Below, one piece after another: positions 14,652 through 22,247 of a DNA stretch of 64,000 nt (position 1 is its first letter; the number at the start of each line of letters is the position of its first letter). Source of the DNA: Microbacterium hatanonis (GTDB lineage Bacteria; Actinomycetota; Actinomycetes; Actinomycetales; Microbacteriaceae); the NCBI RefSeq assembly GCF_008017415.1, contig NZ_VRSV01000001.1, forward strand, positions 1-64,000. Reading direction: 5' to 3'. The notes beneath the pieces are model-generated. The model saw only the letters and a list, made by a program, of their open reading frames with translations, was not told where the DNA came from and ran no database searches. Both the position numbers and the translations under genes were made by a program.

Positions 14652-14764
14652 CCGCGGCGCTCGAAACGAATCCGAGAAAATCTCCTCCTCCCTGCATCCG
14701 CCGGGGCCCCTCGGCCGGAAGTACTGGGTGCGGGTGTTCGGCCCGCTCCGATGAAGGAGGAAAC

Positions 14765-15598
14765 GTGCGCAAGACACTCGCAGCCGGCGCGATCGCCGGT
14801 CTCGCCCTCGCGGCGGGCTTCGCAGCCCCCGCGCAGGCCATCTCGGCCACGACGGCCGATCTCTCCGTACTCCACGCCATCCCCGACACACCAGTGGACG
14901 TGTACGTCAACGGTGCGTTGACCCTCGACGACTTCCAGCCCGGCACTCTCGCGGGCCCGCTCGACCTGGCCGCCGGGTCGTACGACATCGCCATCACGGC
15001 GCCGGACGCCGCTGACGCCAGCGCCCCGATCCTCGCGGCGACCGTCGAACTCGCCGCCAATACGAGCTACACCGCCGTCGCTCACCTCAGTGAGGCCGGT
15101 GCTCCCACGGTCACCCCGTTCGTCAACGACACCAAGACGACGGCGGCAGGCGAAGGGCGCCTCACGGTCCGTCACGTCGCCGCGGCCCCCGCGGTGGACA
15201 TCCTCGCCGGTGGATCGCCGGTCGTGGAAGACCTCGTGAACCCGAAGGAGGCGACCCTCGACCTCCCCGTCGGGACCGTCTCGGCGGCCGTCGCCCTCGC
15301 CGGCACCACCGACCCCGTGATCGGCCCGGCAGACGTCGCCATTCAGGACGGCGTGCTGACGGTGGTCTACGCCTGGGGCAGCGCGGCGGACGGCAACCTC
15401 GCCCTCGCCACGCAGACCGTGACGGTCGGTCACACCGTTCCGGGTGCCGTCATCTCGGGTACCGCCGGGTACGCGGCACAGCGCGACGCGACCACGCAGG
15501 GTCTGTGGGCGATCGGATTCGCAGCGCTCGCGGGTGCTGTGGTGGTAGCCGCCACCGCGATCGTCCGACGCTCGCGCGGTGCGAAGCACACCGTCTGA
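14765..15598 (+). CDS. Secreted DUF4397 surface protein with C-terminal membrane anchor
   Basis: A 277-residue protein with a cleavable signal peptide (MRKTLAAGAIAGLALAAGFA, cleavage likely after AQA near residue 24). Two DUF4397 beta repeats follow, LSVLHAIPDTPVDVYVNG and LTVRHVAAAPAVDILAGG, and the C terminus is a hydrophobic helix with a basic tail (RRSRGAKHTV). The tail resembles a sortase sorting signal, but there is no LPXTG; PGAVISGTAGYAA just before the helix is the only candidate motif. A strong ribosome binding site (AAGGAGG) precedes the GTG. It heads an operon with a sortase and a sigma/anti-sigma pair. Its function is unknown. Confidence 0.85.
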   Translation: MRKTLAAGAIAGLALAAGFAAPAQAISATTADLSVLHAIPDTPVDVYVNGALTLDDFQPGTLAGPLDLAAGSYDIAITAPDAADASAPILAATVELAANTSYTAVAHLSEAGAPTVTPFVNDTKTTAAGEGRLTVRHVAAAPAVDILAGGSPVVEDLVNPKEATLDLPVGTVSAAVALAGTTDPVIGPADVAIQDGVLTVVYAWGSAADGNLALATQTVTVGHTVPGAVISGTAGYAAQRDATTQGLWAIGFAALAGAVVVAATAIVRRSRGAKHTV

Positions 15599-15626
15599 CC
15601 TGGCACCGAGACCGGAGAGCCCTCTT

Positions 15627-16262
15627 ATGAACCTGCGACGCACAGCTCCCCTCGCACTGGTTCTCATGCTCTCCGCCTGCGCGCCCGCCCCGACCCCCCT
15701 CGGGGCGGGCGCACCCACCGCCTCCACGTCGACCCCGTCCGCGACTCCCTCCGCCCCGGTCGTCGACATCCCCCGCGTCGACAGCTCACTGCGCGCCCCC
15801 CGTGCTGCAGTGCCCCCGGTGCGGGTGAGCATCGCGGATGCGCGCGTCGACGTGGAGGTGGTACCCGTCGGCGTCGAGACCGGCGGTTTCATGGAGCTGC
15901 CCGTCGACCCGGCGATCGCCGGGTGGTACAGGTTCGGTTCAGACCCGTGGAGCCCGGACGGCAACACCGTGATCTCGGCGCACATCGATGCGCCGGACTA
16001 TCCGATCGGTCCGTTCGCGGTGCTGCGCGATCTCGCACCGGCGACACAGGTCGAGGTCGTCGGACAGGACGGCCGGAGCGCCCTGTACGCCGTCGAGTCC
16101 GTCACCTACTATCCGAAGGACGCCCTGCCGACGGAGGATCTCTTCGCCCGGGAGGGTACGAACGATCTCGTCCTCATCACGTGCGGCGGGGAGTTCGACA
16201 GCCGAACGGGCCACTACGACGACAACGTCGTGGTCGTCGCCGCACCGGTGGCTGCACGATGA
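15627..16262 (+). CDS. Class F sortase with lipoprotein signal
   Basis: A 211-residue sortase-fold protein. The catalytic triad of the class F group is visible: His119 in ISAHID, Cys186 in LITCGG and Arg193 in FDSRTGHY. The N terminus is a lipoprotein signal ending LMLSAC (Cys18), then a Ser/Thr/Pro-rich linker to about residue 60. Most sortases are held by a transmembrane helix, so lipid anchoring is unusual. It probably trims or attaches surface proteins outside the membrane; the DUF4397 protein encoded just upstream is the obvious candidate substrate. The ATG at 15627 gives the intact lipoprotein signal. Its stop overlaps the sigma gene start. Confidence 0.88.
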   Translation: MNLRRTAPLALVLMLSACAPAPTPLGAGAPTASTSTPSATPSAPVVDIPRVDSSLRAPRAAVPPVRVSIADARVDVEVVPVGVETGGFMELPVDPAIAGWYRFGSDPWSPDGNTVISAHIDAPDYPIGPFAVLRDLAPATQVEVVGQDGRSALYAVESVTYYPKDALPTEDLFAREGTNDLVLITCGGEFDSRTGHYDDNVVVVAAPVAAR

Positions 16263-16849
16263 ACCGACAGGGAGGCCGTGACCCCGTGGCAGACCCTGAT
16301 GGCGAGCTCTCGGCGGAGGAGGCGTTCGCCGCCGGCGACGAGGTCGCCCTCGCCCATGCCTATCGGCGGTGGTCACCGGTGGTGTACACCCTCGCGCTGC
16401 GCTCGCTCGGCGACCGCGCCGACGCGGAGGACGTCACGCAGAAGACCTTCGTCTCGGCGTGGACGTCGAGGACCACGTACGACCCGGCGCGAGCGCGCCT
16501 GTCGACGTGGATCATCGCGATCGCCAAGCGTCGCATCGCCGACACGCACGAGGCTCGGCGCCGCATCCGTGCACTGCAGGAGGAACTGCAGCGCGTGACG
16601 ATCCCCGACGATCTGAGAGCATCGCTGCCGGTCGACCTCGGGGACACGCTCTTGGTCGCGCAGGAGATCGATCGTCTCGAACCCGATGCCCGAAAAGTGA
16701 TGCGGTTGGCGTTCTTCGACGACCTGACCCACGACGAGATCTCCCGTCGCATCGGGATGCCGCTGGGTACCGTCAAGAGCCATATCCGTCGCAGCCTGGA
16801 ACGCATGCGCACTCGACTGGAGGTGACACATGGAGCACATCGATCCTGA
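16259..16849 (+). CDS. ECF RNA polymerase sigma factor (SigK-like)
   Basis: A 196-residue group 4 sigma factor. Region 2 spans about residues 35-100, with DAEDVTQKTFVSAW, where most members read DAEDVTQ-VF. Region 4 carries the helix-turn-helix LTHDEISRRIGMPLGTVKSHIRRSLERMR at about residues 157-185. The start overlaps the sortase stop (ATGA) and its own end overlaps the anti-sigma gene by 20 bases, so all are coupled. The nearest well-known pair with an RskA-type inhibitor is mycobacterial SigK/RskA, which controls secreted surface proteins; similar autoregulation of this operon is an inference. Confidence 0.92.
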   Translation: MNRQGGRDPVADPDGELSAEEAFAAGDEVALAHAYRRWSPVVYTLALRSLGDRADAEDVTQKTFVSAWTSRTTYDPARARLSTWIIAIAKRRIADTHEARRRIRALQEELQRVTIPDDLRASLPVDLGDTLLVAQEIDRLEPDARKVMRLAFFDDLTHDEISRRIGMPLGTVKSHIRRSLERMRTRLEVTHGAHRS

Positions 16850-17558
16850 GATGCTCGCGCTGATCGCGCTCGGCGAGCCCGTCGCGACGTCGGAGGTCGA
16901 GCGTCATCTCGACGCGTGCGACGAGTGCGCCGACGACCTCGCCGGCCTCCGTCGTGCGGCGCTCGCCGGGAGGGCGACCCTCGACGCGGGTGACCTCGAG
17001 CGACCGCGCGAGGTCGTCTGGGAGCGCATCTCCGCCGAACTCGCGCTCGGAACGACCGCAGGGCCGGCCGCCCCCGCCCCGGAGCCGTCCCGCTCTGCCA
17101 CACGCAGACGCTCCGTCGGGCGCAGGCGCTCCGGCCGGAACTGGGGCCTCGCCGCCGTCGCACTCCTCGTCGCCGGTGCGAGTCTGGGAACCTGGGCGTG
17201 GACGAGGTCGACGGCACCCATCGAGGTGGCGCAGGCTTCGCTCGCCGCTTTCCCCGATCACCCCGGCGCCGAGGGCACCGCGGTCGTGGAGGAGAACCCG
17301 GACGGCTCACGATTCGTGCGGGTGGAGGTATCGGCGGATGCGGCGCCCGACACCTATCGGGAGGTGTGGCTCATCGCCCCCGATGCGTCCGAGCTGGTGA
17401 GCCTCGGTGTCCTCGACGACGACACGGGTACGTTGACCGTGCCCGCGGGAGTGGATCTCGCCCGTTTCCCGTTGGTGGACGTCTCGCAGGAACCCGTGGA
17501 CGGCGACCCCGACCATTCGGGCGACTCGATCGTGCGGGGCGAGCTCTCCTTCTCCTGA
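16830..17558 (+). CDS. Membrane anti-sigma factor, RskA type with zinc motif
   Basis: A 242-residue anti-sigma factor. The cytoplasmic N-terminal part has the zinc-binding anti-sigma motif His26-x3-Cys30-x2-Cys33 (HLDACDEC). A basic linker (RRRSVGRRRSGRN) precedes one transmembrane helix at about residues 106-124. The extracellular part is an RskA C-terminal domain (YREVWLIAPDASELVSLG near 175-192). It should hold the upstream sigma factor inactive until a surface signal triggers proteolysis. It is the last gene of the operon. The 20-base overlap with the sigma gene is typical of stoichiometric co-expression. Confidence 0.92.
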   Translation: MEHIDPEMLALIALGEPVATSEVERHLDACDECADDLAGLRRAALAGRATLDAGDLERPREVVWERISAELALGTTAGPAAPAPEPSRSATRRRSVGRRRSGRNWGLAAVALLVAGASLGTWAWTRSTAPIEVAQASLAAFPDHPGAEGTAVVEENPDGSRFVRVEVSADAAPDTYREVWLIAPDASELVSLGVLDDDTGTLTVPAGVDLARFPLVDVSQEPVDGDPDHSGDSIVRGELSFS

Positions 17559-17588: not shown

Positions 17589-18104
17589 TCAGGGGGTGGC
17601 GGCGGGGAGGATCCGCACCCATCCCGTCTCGATGAGGTCGGTGTCGGTGAAGCTCAATTGCACGACCCCGTCGTAGCCCGTGACGGTGAACGTGCCGCGG
17701 TACGGCTCGTCGCACCGCAGAGACGACGACGTCAGGTTGCGGCGCTCATCGCCGGAGACGGCCGTCTCGACCTTGTAGGCGGCGCGGGTGCCGATGCACG
17801 CTCCCTCCACGGTGTAGGTGCCGCCGTCGGCCACCGTGTCCTCCGCGATCGAGCTCGCGCTGGGGATCCCGTCCGCGCCGATCACGAACTCCGCGCGGGC
17901 CACCTCGCCCTCGGCCACCTCGGGAATGACGAGGGACGTGGGCTCCGGGGAGGCTGGGGACGCCGAAGAGGGTGCGGCCGGGGGAGTGGTCGTGGGCTCG
18001 GAATCCGACTCCGTCGTGCCGCCCGCCGTGCACGCGCCCAGCAGGAGCGCAACCGGGAGCAGTGAGACGGCCAGCCGCAGCCGACGCTTCTGTGTGTCCG
18101 TCAT
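17589..18104 (-). CDS. Putative lipoprotein of unknown function
   Basis: A 171-residue lipoprotein. The signal sequence ends LLLGAC (Cys25) and is followed by a Thr/Pro/Ser-rich linker to about residue 58, then a compact beta-rich domain with two cysteines (EGACIG and LRCDEPY) that could form a disulfide. No family recognised. It is convergent with the anti-sigma gene (30 bases apart) and divergent from the acyl-CoA ligase. On the minus strand TAGCGT (18111-18116) is 6 bases before the ATG, with GGAGGG between, so the message is probably leaderless. Confidence 0.75.
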   Translation of the reverse strand: MTDTQKRRLRLAVSLLPVALLLGACTAGGTTESDSEPTTTPPAAPSSASPASPEPTSLVIPEVAEGEVARAEFVIGADGIPSASSIAEDTVADGGTYTVEGACIGTRAAYKVETAVSGDERRNLTSSSLRCDEPYRGTFTVTGYDGVVQLSFTDTDLIETGWVRILPAATP

Positions 18105-20898: not shown

Positions 20899-21219
20899 TC
20901 AGGCGGATCGGCTGCTGTCATCGGTGGGTTCGGCGACCAGCATGAGGCCGCCGGAGGAGTTCGCCGATGCCGCGAGCTCCTCGATCCAGGCGCGGCTCAA
21001 CAGCGTCGGCTCGGGGTCGTCGAACACGAACCGCAGAGGGATCGACGGGTGCAGCCAGACCGTGCTGCGTCCGGGCTCGGCGTCGTCGGTGTGCGTCCAC
21101 GAGAGGGTGAAGCTCTCGCCCCTGCGCAGTTTGGTCGCTATGACCACCTTGAGGTGCGCCAGCGCGCGGTCCTCGATCTCGATCGGCGCCGAGGAGTCTC
21201 CGTAGTAGATCGTTCCCAC
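20899..21219 (-). CDS. DUF7882-like small protein, paralogue 1 of 3
   Basis: A 106-residue protein of a small actinobacterial family (DUF7882-like; entries have sometimes been labelled ATP-dependent DNA ligase without apparent basis). Conserved blocks shared with its two neighbours are the start MGTIYYG, EDRALAHLKVVIATKLRRGE, VWLHPSIPLRFVF and RAWIEELAASANSSGGL. It has no signal peptide or catalytic motif that I recognise. The GTG start follows TAGCGT (minus strand, 21226-21231) by 6 bases, so the message is probably leaderless. Nearly identical blocks at 21651-21980 imply a recent duplication of these two copies. Confidence 0.8.
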   Translation of the reverse strand: MGTIYYGDSSAPIEIEDRALAHLKVVIATKLRRGESFTLSWTHTDDAEPGRSTVWLHPSIPLRFVFDDPEPTLLSRAWIEELAASANSSGGLMLVAEPTDDSSRSA

Positions 21220-21318
21220 CCGGTCACGCTACCCCGTCGTCGCATCCTCGGAGGGGGCTTGCGAGCGGTGCGTCGGGATGACAAGAGGGACGACCGCGAC
21301 GACGGGTAGGCTCGCCAT

Positions 21319-21636
21319 ATGGGCAGATTCATCTACGACACGATGGCCAACTCGGTCGACATCGATGACCGCACGCTGGCGCACCTTCGCATCGTGGTGA
21401 TGAACAAGCTGCGACGCTCCGAGTCGTTCATGTTCGACATCGAGGTGGGCGACGGCAGCGGGCGGCGCAGCTTCTGGATGCACCCGTCGGTGCCGATCCA
21501 GTTCCACTTCTTCGGCAGCCGCAGCCCCCGCATCAATCGGGCATGGGTCGAGGAGCTGATGCTCGTCGCCAGCGGCCCGAACGGGCTGGCGATCGTGCCG
21601 GAGCCCTCCGAGGACTCCTTCGTCGAAGAGGGCTGA
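21319..21636 (+). CDS. DUF7882-like small protein, paralogue 2 of 3
   Basis: A 105-residue relative of the genes on either side, but on the opposite strand and more divergent: MGRFIYDTMANSVDIDDRTL at the N terminus, RIVVMNKLRRSESFMF, FWMHPSVPIQFHFFGSRSPR and NRAWVEELMLVASGPNGL. Function unknown. TAGGCT (21307-21312) lies 6 bases before the ATG, so it is probably leaderless. It shares a divergent spacer of about 100 bases with paralogue 1 and is convergent with paralogue 3. Confidence 0.8.
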   Translation: MGRFIYDTMANSVDIDDRTLAHLRIVVMNKLRRSESFMFDIEVGDGSGRRSFWMHPSVPIQFHFFGSRSPRINRAWVEELMLVASGPNGLAIVPEPSEDSFVEEG

Positions 21637-21650
21637 CCCCGCCGTCGGCC

Positions 21651-21980
21651 TCAGCTGGCGCTGGGCTCCGGCGTCGCGACGTCGAAGAGCTCGGCGACGA
21701 GCATGATCCCGCCCGAGGAGTTGGCGGAATTGGCGAGCTCCTCCACCCATTCCCGGCTCAGGAGCGCGGGCTCGGGGTCGTCGAAGACGAAGCGCAGGGG
21801 GATCGACGGGTGCAGCCACAGGGTGCTGCGGCCGTGCGGCTGGTCGTCGGGATGGCGCCAGGAGACCGTGAAGCTCTCGCCACGACGCAGCTTCGTGGCG
21901 ATCACGACCTTCAGATGCGCGAGCGCGCGGTCCTCGATCTGGATGGGAGTCGCCGACCCGCCGTAGTAGATGGTGCCCAT
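21651..21980 (-). CDS. DUF7882-like small protein, paralogue 3 of 3
   Basis: A 109-residue protein closely matching paralogue 1 through MGTIYYG, IQIEDRALAHLKVVIATKLRRGE, PSIPLRFVFDDPEP and LANSANSSGGIMLVAE. Start at 21980 was preferred over longer in-frame options because conservation begins there and TAGGGT (minus strand, 21988-21993) lies 7 bases upstream, giving a leaderless start. Function unknown. Confidence 0.8.
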   Translation of the reverse strand: MGTIYYGGSATPIQIEDRALAHLKVVIATKLRRGESFTVSWRHPDDQPHGRSTLWLHPSIPLRFVFDDPEPALLSREWVEELANSANSSGGIMLVAELFDVATPEPSAS

Positions 21981-22100
21981 ACGCCTCACCCTAATGGGCG
22001 GTGCGAGGGGATGCGCATCGCCTGCGAGCTTGTCAAGGGGACCGGCCGTTCGAGACGCGGCTGTCATTGTGGGGTGATGACCGGAAGGGAGAACCCGGCT

Positions 22101-22247
22101 GTGACGACACACCCTGGCCCCACGGCGTCCGACAACGACGGGCACCCCAACGACGCAACCGACCCCGCGGATGTCTTCGCGGGTCTGACGGCTATCGACG
22201 TCGTCGACGGCGAGCTCGTGCCCCGCCGCGCGCGCGTCTCTCGCTGA
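22101..22247 (+). CDS. Possible small protein, 48 residues
   Basis: A short frame of 48 codons starting at GTG 22101, preceded by AAGGGAG (22085-22091) with 9 bases spacing. An in-frame ATG at 22077 would add 8 residues and lies 6 bases after CATTGT, a weak -10. The product is acidic and hydrophilic in the first half (rich in Asp, Pro, Asn) and ends with the basic PRRARVSR. No family recognised. It fills the gap between the paralogue cluster and the convergent LacI gene. It may be a real small gene or chance. Confidence 0.35.
   Translation: MTTHPGPTASDNDGHPNDATDPADVFAGLTAIDVVDGELVPRRARVSR

Follow-up and report, generated by a model that had tools for sequence, protein, structure and literature searches.

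Sortases in general use His, Cys, and Arg as catalytic residues, and to our knowledge, the substrates of class F-like sortases are largely unknown. What class F sortases do physiologically was described as unknown in a 2026 study of Actinoplanes; quadruple deletion of these enzymes left the phenotype unchanged, and the neighbors of srtF1 and srtF4, which have a C-terminal helix and a basic end and no known pentapeptide, were therefore set aside (PMC13251363). On the side of regulation, the SigK-RskA pair of Mycobacterium controls MPT70 and MPT83, which the M. kansasii annotation lists as fasciclin-domain proteins; high conservation of SigK sites across Actinobacteria has also been described (PMC7509140, PMC9861118). 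A search of the open-licence literature returned no paper joining DUF4397 with a sortase or a sigma factor. Here we describe a four-gene locus in which such elements are found side by side.

Layout of the Locus

The locus lies in the window, by which we mean the whole stretch of 64,000 nucleotides that was analyzed; it belongs to a complete 3.55-Mb Microbacterium genome in two contigs (G000). Its features are as follows.

14693..14724, + strand: candidate SigK-like promoter site, TGCATCC-N17-GGAAGTAC (33 upstream regions aligned; fixed-pattern counts; own-genome match)
14765..15598, + strand: DUF4397 surface protein (PF14344, 1.9e-29; model pLDDT 84)
15440..15469, + strand: tail motif of that protein, P226-G-A-V229-I-S-G232-T-A-G235 (conservation; modeled as disordered, directly ahead of the helix)
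15627..16262, + strand: class F-like sortase (PF04203, 1.9e-13; NF033748, 115.7 bits; lipobox LSAC)
16259..16849, + strand: ECF sigma factor, SigK-like, ECF19 type (Sigma70_r2 and r4_2; SigK models among the best)
16830..17558, + strand: RskA-type anti-sigma factor (RskA_C, 4.4e-14; one membrane helix)

An earlier, sequence-only reading of this DNA had described four adjoining or overlapping genes, with the sortase encoded directly before the sigma/anti-sigma pair. Profile matches and coordinates agree with both statements, as a gap of 28 bp between the DUF4397 and sortase genes is followed by overlaps of 4 and 20 bp. The DUF4397 gene begins with GTG, with AAGGAGG in front. The ATG at 16259 assigned to the sigma gene has no ribosome-binding site, whereas GGGAGG precedes a GTG in the same frame at 16286, and translation may start at the latter; with the start in doubt, the 4-bp sortase/sigma overlap may instead be a short gap. 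Within the four-gene region, a standard terminator scan found no terminator-like site and a standard sigma-70 promoter scan gave no match. Just past the anti-sigma gene, a putative lipoprotein with no Pfam match is encoded convergently (17589-18104, - strand). Further along, the stretch 20899-22145 encodes a row of three small proteins that resemble each other (MGTIYYGDSSAPIEIEDRALAHLKVVIATKLRRGESF-like, ~ 105 residues or longer) and alternate in orientation.

The Sigma/Anti-sigma Pair

The two regulatory proteins match PF04542, PF08281, and PF10099 above cut-off, covering regions 2 and 4 of the sigma factor and the RskA C-terminal domain of its partner. The anti-sigma stretch HIDPEMLALIA is identical to the AS19-2 consensus HLDPDQLALLA at seven of 11 positions, and the second AS19-2 helix motif, GEPLDADERAHL, has the counterpart GEPVATSEVERHL, both matches being judged by eye and not with the model of the authors of PMC7406223. 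The protein also contains an H-x3-C-x2-C motif. The partners of AS19-2 anti-sigma factors are ECF19 sigmas (PMC7406223).

In the five relatives' loci where the sigma pair stands detached from the other two genes, a small fasciclin protein is encoded beside it in every case, and most of these fasciclin genes also have the promoter site. The window genome itself holds a second sigma/RskA pair at C1 ~ 393-396 kb (L113, ~ 393300-395600), which is divergent from a fasciclin lipoprotein gene and is closer to the classical SigK-RskA-MPT83 arrangement; its sigma factor is 32% identical to that of the window. Based on the fasciclin neighbors of the detached sigmas, the AS19-2 motifs, and this separate pair, the window pair is best placed in the ECF19/AS19-2 type and regarded as a sibling of the mycobacterial SigK-RskA pair.

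The likeness to the M. tuberculosis system extends to co-encoding of an ECF sigma with an RskA-type anti-sigma, to secreted surface proteins as predicted targets, to a conserved promoter type with predicted autoregulation, and to fasciclin genes, recalling mpt70 and mpt83, that adjoin the sigma gene in relatives. In contrast to M. tuberculosis, the window anti-sigma belongs to AS19-2 and not to AS19-1 (PMC7406223), the main predicted targets are the DUF4397 and sortase genes, and the genome carries the additional SigK/RskA-like pair with its fasciclin lipoprotein. The cysteine pair 133/183 of SigK is likewise missing from the window sigma, which has no cysteine at all; this pair is present in 56% of ECF19 and hence is not obligatory (PMC7509140).

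Promoter-like Site and Predicted Autoregulation

A promoter-like site, TGCATCC-N17-GGAAnnAC, sits 72 bp 5′ of the DUF4397 start. When the regions 5′ of 33 DUF4397 genes were aligned, all of them had GCATCC and, at a distance of ~ 17 bases, a GGAA-like element, with the full heptamer TGCATCC present in nearly all. Our label of SigK-like refers to this conservation of TGCATCC-N17-GGAA. Searched as a fixed pattern, the site precedes the DUF4397 gene in 28 of 29 four-gene loci of Microbacterium, 71-95 bp upstream, and stands directly before the sortase, sigma, or anti-sigma gene in none of the 29. It also precedes the sigma gene in all five detached loci and the DUF4397 gene in all four split genomes. 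The background of the fixed pattern is < 0.02 per 200 bp, a count that includes the true sites. Among class-level loci of the same order, the pattern was found in nine of 20, with looser matches in more.

The site thus accompanies whichever gene heads the unit, which is what autoregulation by this sigma would lead one to expect. Probable autoregulation, with a single promoter-like site tied to the sigma at the head of the operon, is supported by these comparisons. The circuit proposed in the sequence-only reading, in which the sigma would raise expression of the sortase and its substrate, likewise finds good support in the comparative data, since the operon begins with a SigK-like site and the detached sigma genes are preceded by the same kind of site.

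In genus-wide and genome-wide scans, the promoter pattern alone is near background; it cannot by itself support further targets, and we claim no regulon. Three matches in the window genome were rejected as targets, two lying inside genes (C1:953062 and C1:2079937) and one missing the full -10 element (C1:138031). A looser form of the pattern fits G000:C1:1674335-1674365, of which an identical copy is present in the sister genome G050.

Conservation of Gene Order

Following the suggestion to look for the same order in other Actinobacteria, we found DUF4397, sortase, ECF sigma, and RskA-type anti-sigma genes in this order in 29 of 119 Microbacterium genomes, which corresponds to 29 of the 33 Microbacterium loci with a DUF4397-sortase pair of the window's kind. 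Across the 119 genomes, DUF4397 occurs in 44, the window-like sortase in 49 (two of them weak matches), and the sigma in 34. No genome has DUF4397 without a window-like sortase (Fisher p 2e-27, a value that overstates the strength, as related sequences are not independent). In four genomes (G110, G012, G017, and G095), the DUF4397-sortase pair lies apart from the sigma/anti-sigma pair, and in G065, the sigma pair is present with neither partner.

In a sample of 395 genomes drawn across the class, DUF4397 was detected in 87 and a close sigma in 78, and a sortase of this kind accompanied DUF4397 in 83 of these 87 genomes, versus 147 of the 308 others. The class-level loci that were fetched include 20 with the four-gene order, from ten families; elsewhere, the genes are rearranged or divergent, with the sigma or anti-sigma found on either flank of the DUF4397-sortase pair. 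Recurrence of one order at 29 of 33 Microbacterium loci and 20 class loci indicates more than chance. Hence, the set is not rare, and the comparison identifies it as a widespread actinobacterial module, not peculiar to the window genome.

The Sortase

The predicted structure of the sortase (pLDDT 89) is confident and confirms the fold; comparison with solved sortases gave a Foldseek value of 8.5e-9 and Z scores of up to 16.8. The matches span several classes at about the same level, and C. diphtheriae SrtF is one of them but does not outrank classes A, C, and E, so that the class is not settled by the fold. Among all sortase models, NF033748 gives the best match, and because its 115.7 bits stay below the curated NCBIfam cut-off of 166 bits, we use the name class F-like. 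A PDB sequence search with single proteins returned no relative. Matches to class F sortases are common in the class, occurring in 281 of the 395 sampled genomes (~ 230 at E below 1e-10).

All 50 relatives in the alignment keep His119 and Cys186. Asn200 is equally invariant (50/50), and by sequence alignment, it occupies the position where the canonical sortases of the same genome have the catalytic Arg. A lipobox, L-S-A-C, is present at residues 15-18, which the sequence-only reading took as a replacement for a transmembrane anchor. This feature holds within the genus, with the small residue and Cys kept in 33 of 33 Microbacterium orthologues, but does not generalize, as many class relatives outside Microbacterium have a plain hydrophobic N-terminus and no lipobox. 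Lipid anchoring of the sortase is thus predicted to be a trait of some lineages.

In summary of its kinship, the window sortase resembles the actinobacterial class F enzymes (NF033748) in family match, fold, and invariant His and Cys, and like Actinoplanes srtF1 and srtF4, it adjoins a secreted protein with a C-terminal helix and basic end (PMC13251363). Unlike them, it scores under the curated cut-off, has a lipobox, is encoded inside a sigma-factor operon, and has a dedicated neighbor with a defined non-LPXTG motif.

The DUF4397 Protein and Its Tail

The DUF4397 protein consists of a signal peptide, two beta-sandwich domains, the tail motif, a C-terminal membrane helix, and a basic end. In its model, a low-confidence stretch at 228-237 precedes a helix at 237-272, and among solved folds, the extracellular domains of the peptide transporters PepT1 and PepT2 come closest. 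Of the linker residues, P226, V229, and G232 are found in 41 of 41 proteins and G235 in 40, and the helix itself is variable; R269 is likewise kept in 40 of the 41. The conserved tail can therefore be written as P-x-x-V-x-[STA]-G-x-x-G, followed by the membrane helix and basic end. Like LPXTG and LAXTG signals, it combines a short motif, a membrane helix, and a basic end, and places a small residue and then Gly at the presumed cut. Unlike them, it has no L-P or L-A; neither pentapeptide is present in the window tail, which reads TVPGAVISGTAGYAAQRD.

Presence of the motif follows presence of the sortase. Among 116 distinct tails surveyed, 106 of the 108 encoded next to a sortase have the motif, versus one of six that lack such a neighbor (p 8e-7, which overstates the strength, as the sortase-less cases are few and the sequences related); calling a locus sortase-less required adequate flank, and L179 and L216, near contig ends, were excluded. 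The sole motif-bearing exception, L164, has a nearby sortase match at a looser cut-off. The DUF4397 proteins of G309, G441, and G291 end straight after the domain; G309 and G441 have no strong class F match anywhere in the genome, and in the two of these three genomes that were checked, no tail was found in other frames past the stop. In L195 and L206, the helix is retained and the motif is lost. At the other extreme, a single uninterrupted frame in L194 (genome G135) contains the DUF4397 domain, a similar tail and its helix, and a class F-like sortase together with a lipobox.

As the motif is present with the sortase and is missing or eroded without it, recognition of the motif by the adjacent class F-like sortase is the simplest reading; the motif would then be a putative sorting signal, and the DUF4397 protein most likely behaves as the substrate of that sortase. 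This agrees with the substrate role assigned to the protein in the sequence-only reading, which had nevertheless overlooked the absence of LPXTG from the tail.

Proposed Mechanism and Alternatives

From these comparisons, we consider it likely that the four genes form one autoregulated, sigma-driven operon whose DUF4397 product is sorted by the adjacent sortase. The membrane-bound RskA-type anti-sigma would keep the SigK-like ECF sigma inactive until an envelope event frees it, probably via regulated proteolysis of the anti-sigma, by analogy with RskA-type factors. The trigger might be a surface signal and the physiological role a response to stress, as originally suggested. The freed sigma would then transcribe all four genes from the TGCATCC-N17-GGAA promoter at 14693. 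Upon export, the DUF4397 protein would be retained by its C-terminal helix, and the presumably lipid-anchored sortase would cut within P-x-x-V-x-[S/T/A]-G, most likely at S231/G232. The cut protein would finally be joined to the envelope, probably onto a peptidoglycan precursor. Counting against this reading are the near-background frequency of the promoter pattern in whole genomes, its fixed form in only nine of the 20 class-level loci, the missing canonical Arg of the sortase, and a class F score under the NCBI cut-off.

The sigma pair could also control the operon while the DUF4397 tail, its linker conserved, does no more than hold the protein in the membrane; the sortase would then act on other proteins or have lost its transpeptidase function. 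Such an anchor would be compatible with a tail devoid of LPXTG or LAXTG, with the replacement of the catalytic Arg by Asn in all 50 relatives, and with the unaltered phenotype of the Actinoplanes quadruple deletion (PMC13251363). However, it does not explain why three linker residues are invariant while the helix varies, why the motif disappears with the sortase even where the helix persists (L195, L206), or why the His and Cys of the sortase are invariant, and we regard it as unlikely. Marginally less probable still is a closed-loop envelope sensor, in which the extracytoplasmic RskA_C reads the state of the anchored protein and thereby sets sigma activity, making the DUF4397 protein or the sortase an input as well. 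Many families keep both genes in an operon with the sigma pair, which hints at such feedback, as do the rearranged loci that keep the sigma or anti-sigma on either side; against it, the two pairs are separable, as in the four split genomes and in G065 with its lone sigma pair. The separation in four Microbacterium genomes would also fit two unrelated gene pairs that are mere neighbors under separate regulation. This last explanation seems very improbable to us, since each pair has this type of promoter at its head where the two are split, the joined unit has it a single time, and the order recurs across ten families.

Within the preferred reading of a sigma-driven operon with a sorted DUF4397 product, the conserved non-LPXTG tail, as a putative sorting signal, is a more novel result than the circuit itself. 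With more reserve, we lean toward the broader view that actinomycete class F-like sortases and DUF4397 proteins belong together as enzymes and their dedicated substrates, with P-x(1,3)-[VI]-x-[STA]-G taking the place of LPXTG and without need of the canonical Arg, and that in this lineage the pair is the self-amplifying output of a SigK-type sigma factor. With a conserved motif that resembles a sorting signal, a substrate family that can be named, and a sigma factor predicted to be in control, the role of a class F sortase would become directly testable, addressing both the missing roles of these enzymes and the neighbors with this tail layout and no known pentapeptide (PMC13251363). SigK-RskA control, known for mycobacterial antigens, would at the same time be extended to a second kind of surface protein.

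Other Microbacterium genomes contain a second kind of DUF4397 locus (L087, L089-L096, and L101; e.g., L093:3735-5357). These loci encode a lipobox protein of ~ 540 residues, a fusion of a family 8 glycosyl hydrolase with a class F-like sortase, and the tails of the neighboring DUF4397 proteins read P-V/I-G-G-I-x-T-G-G-G-G.
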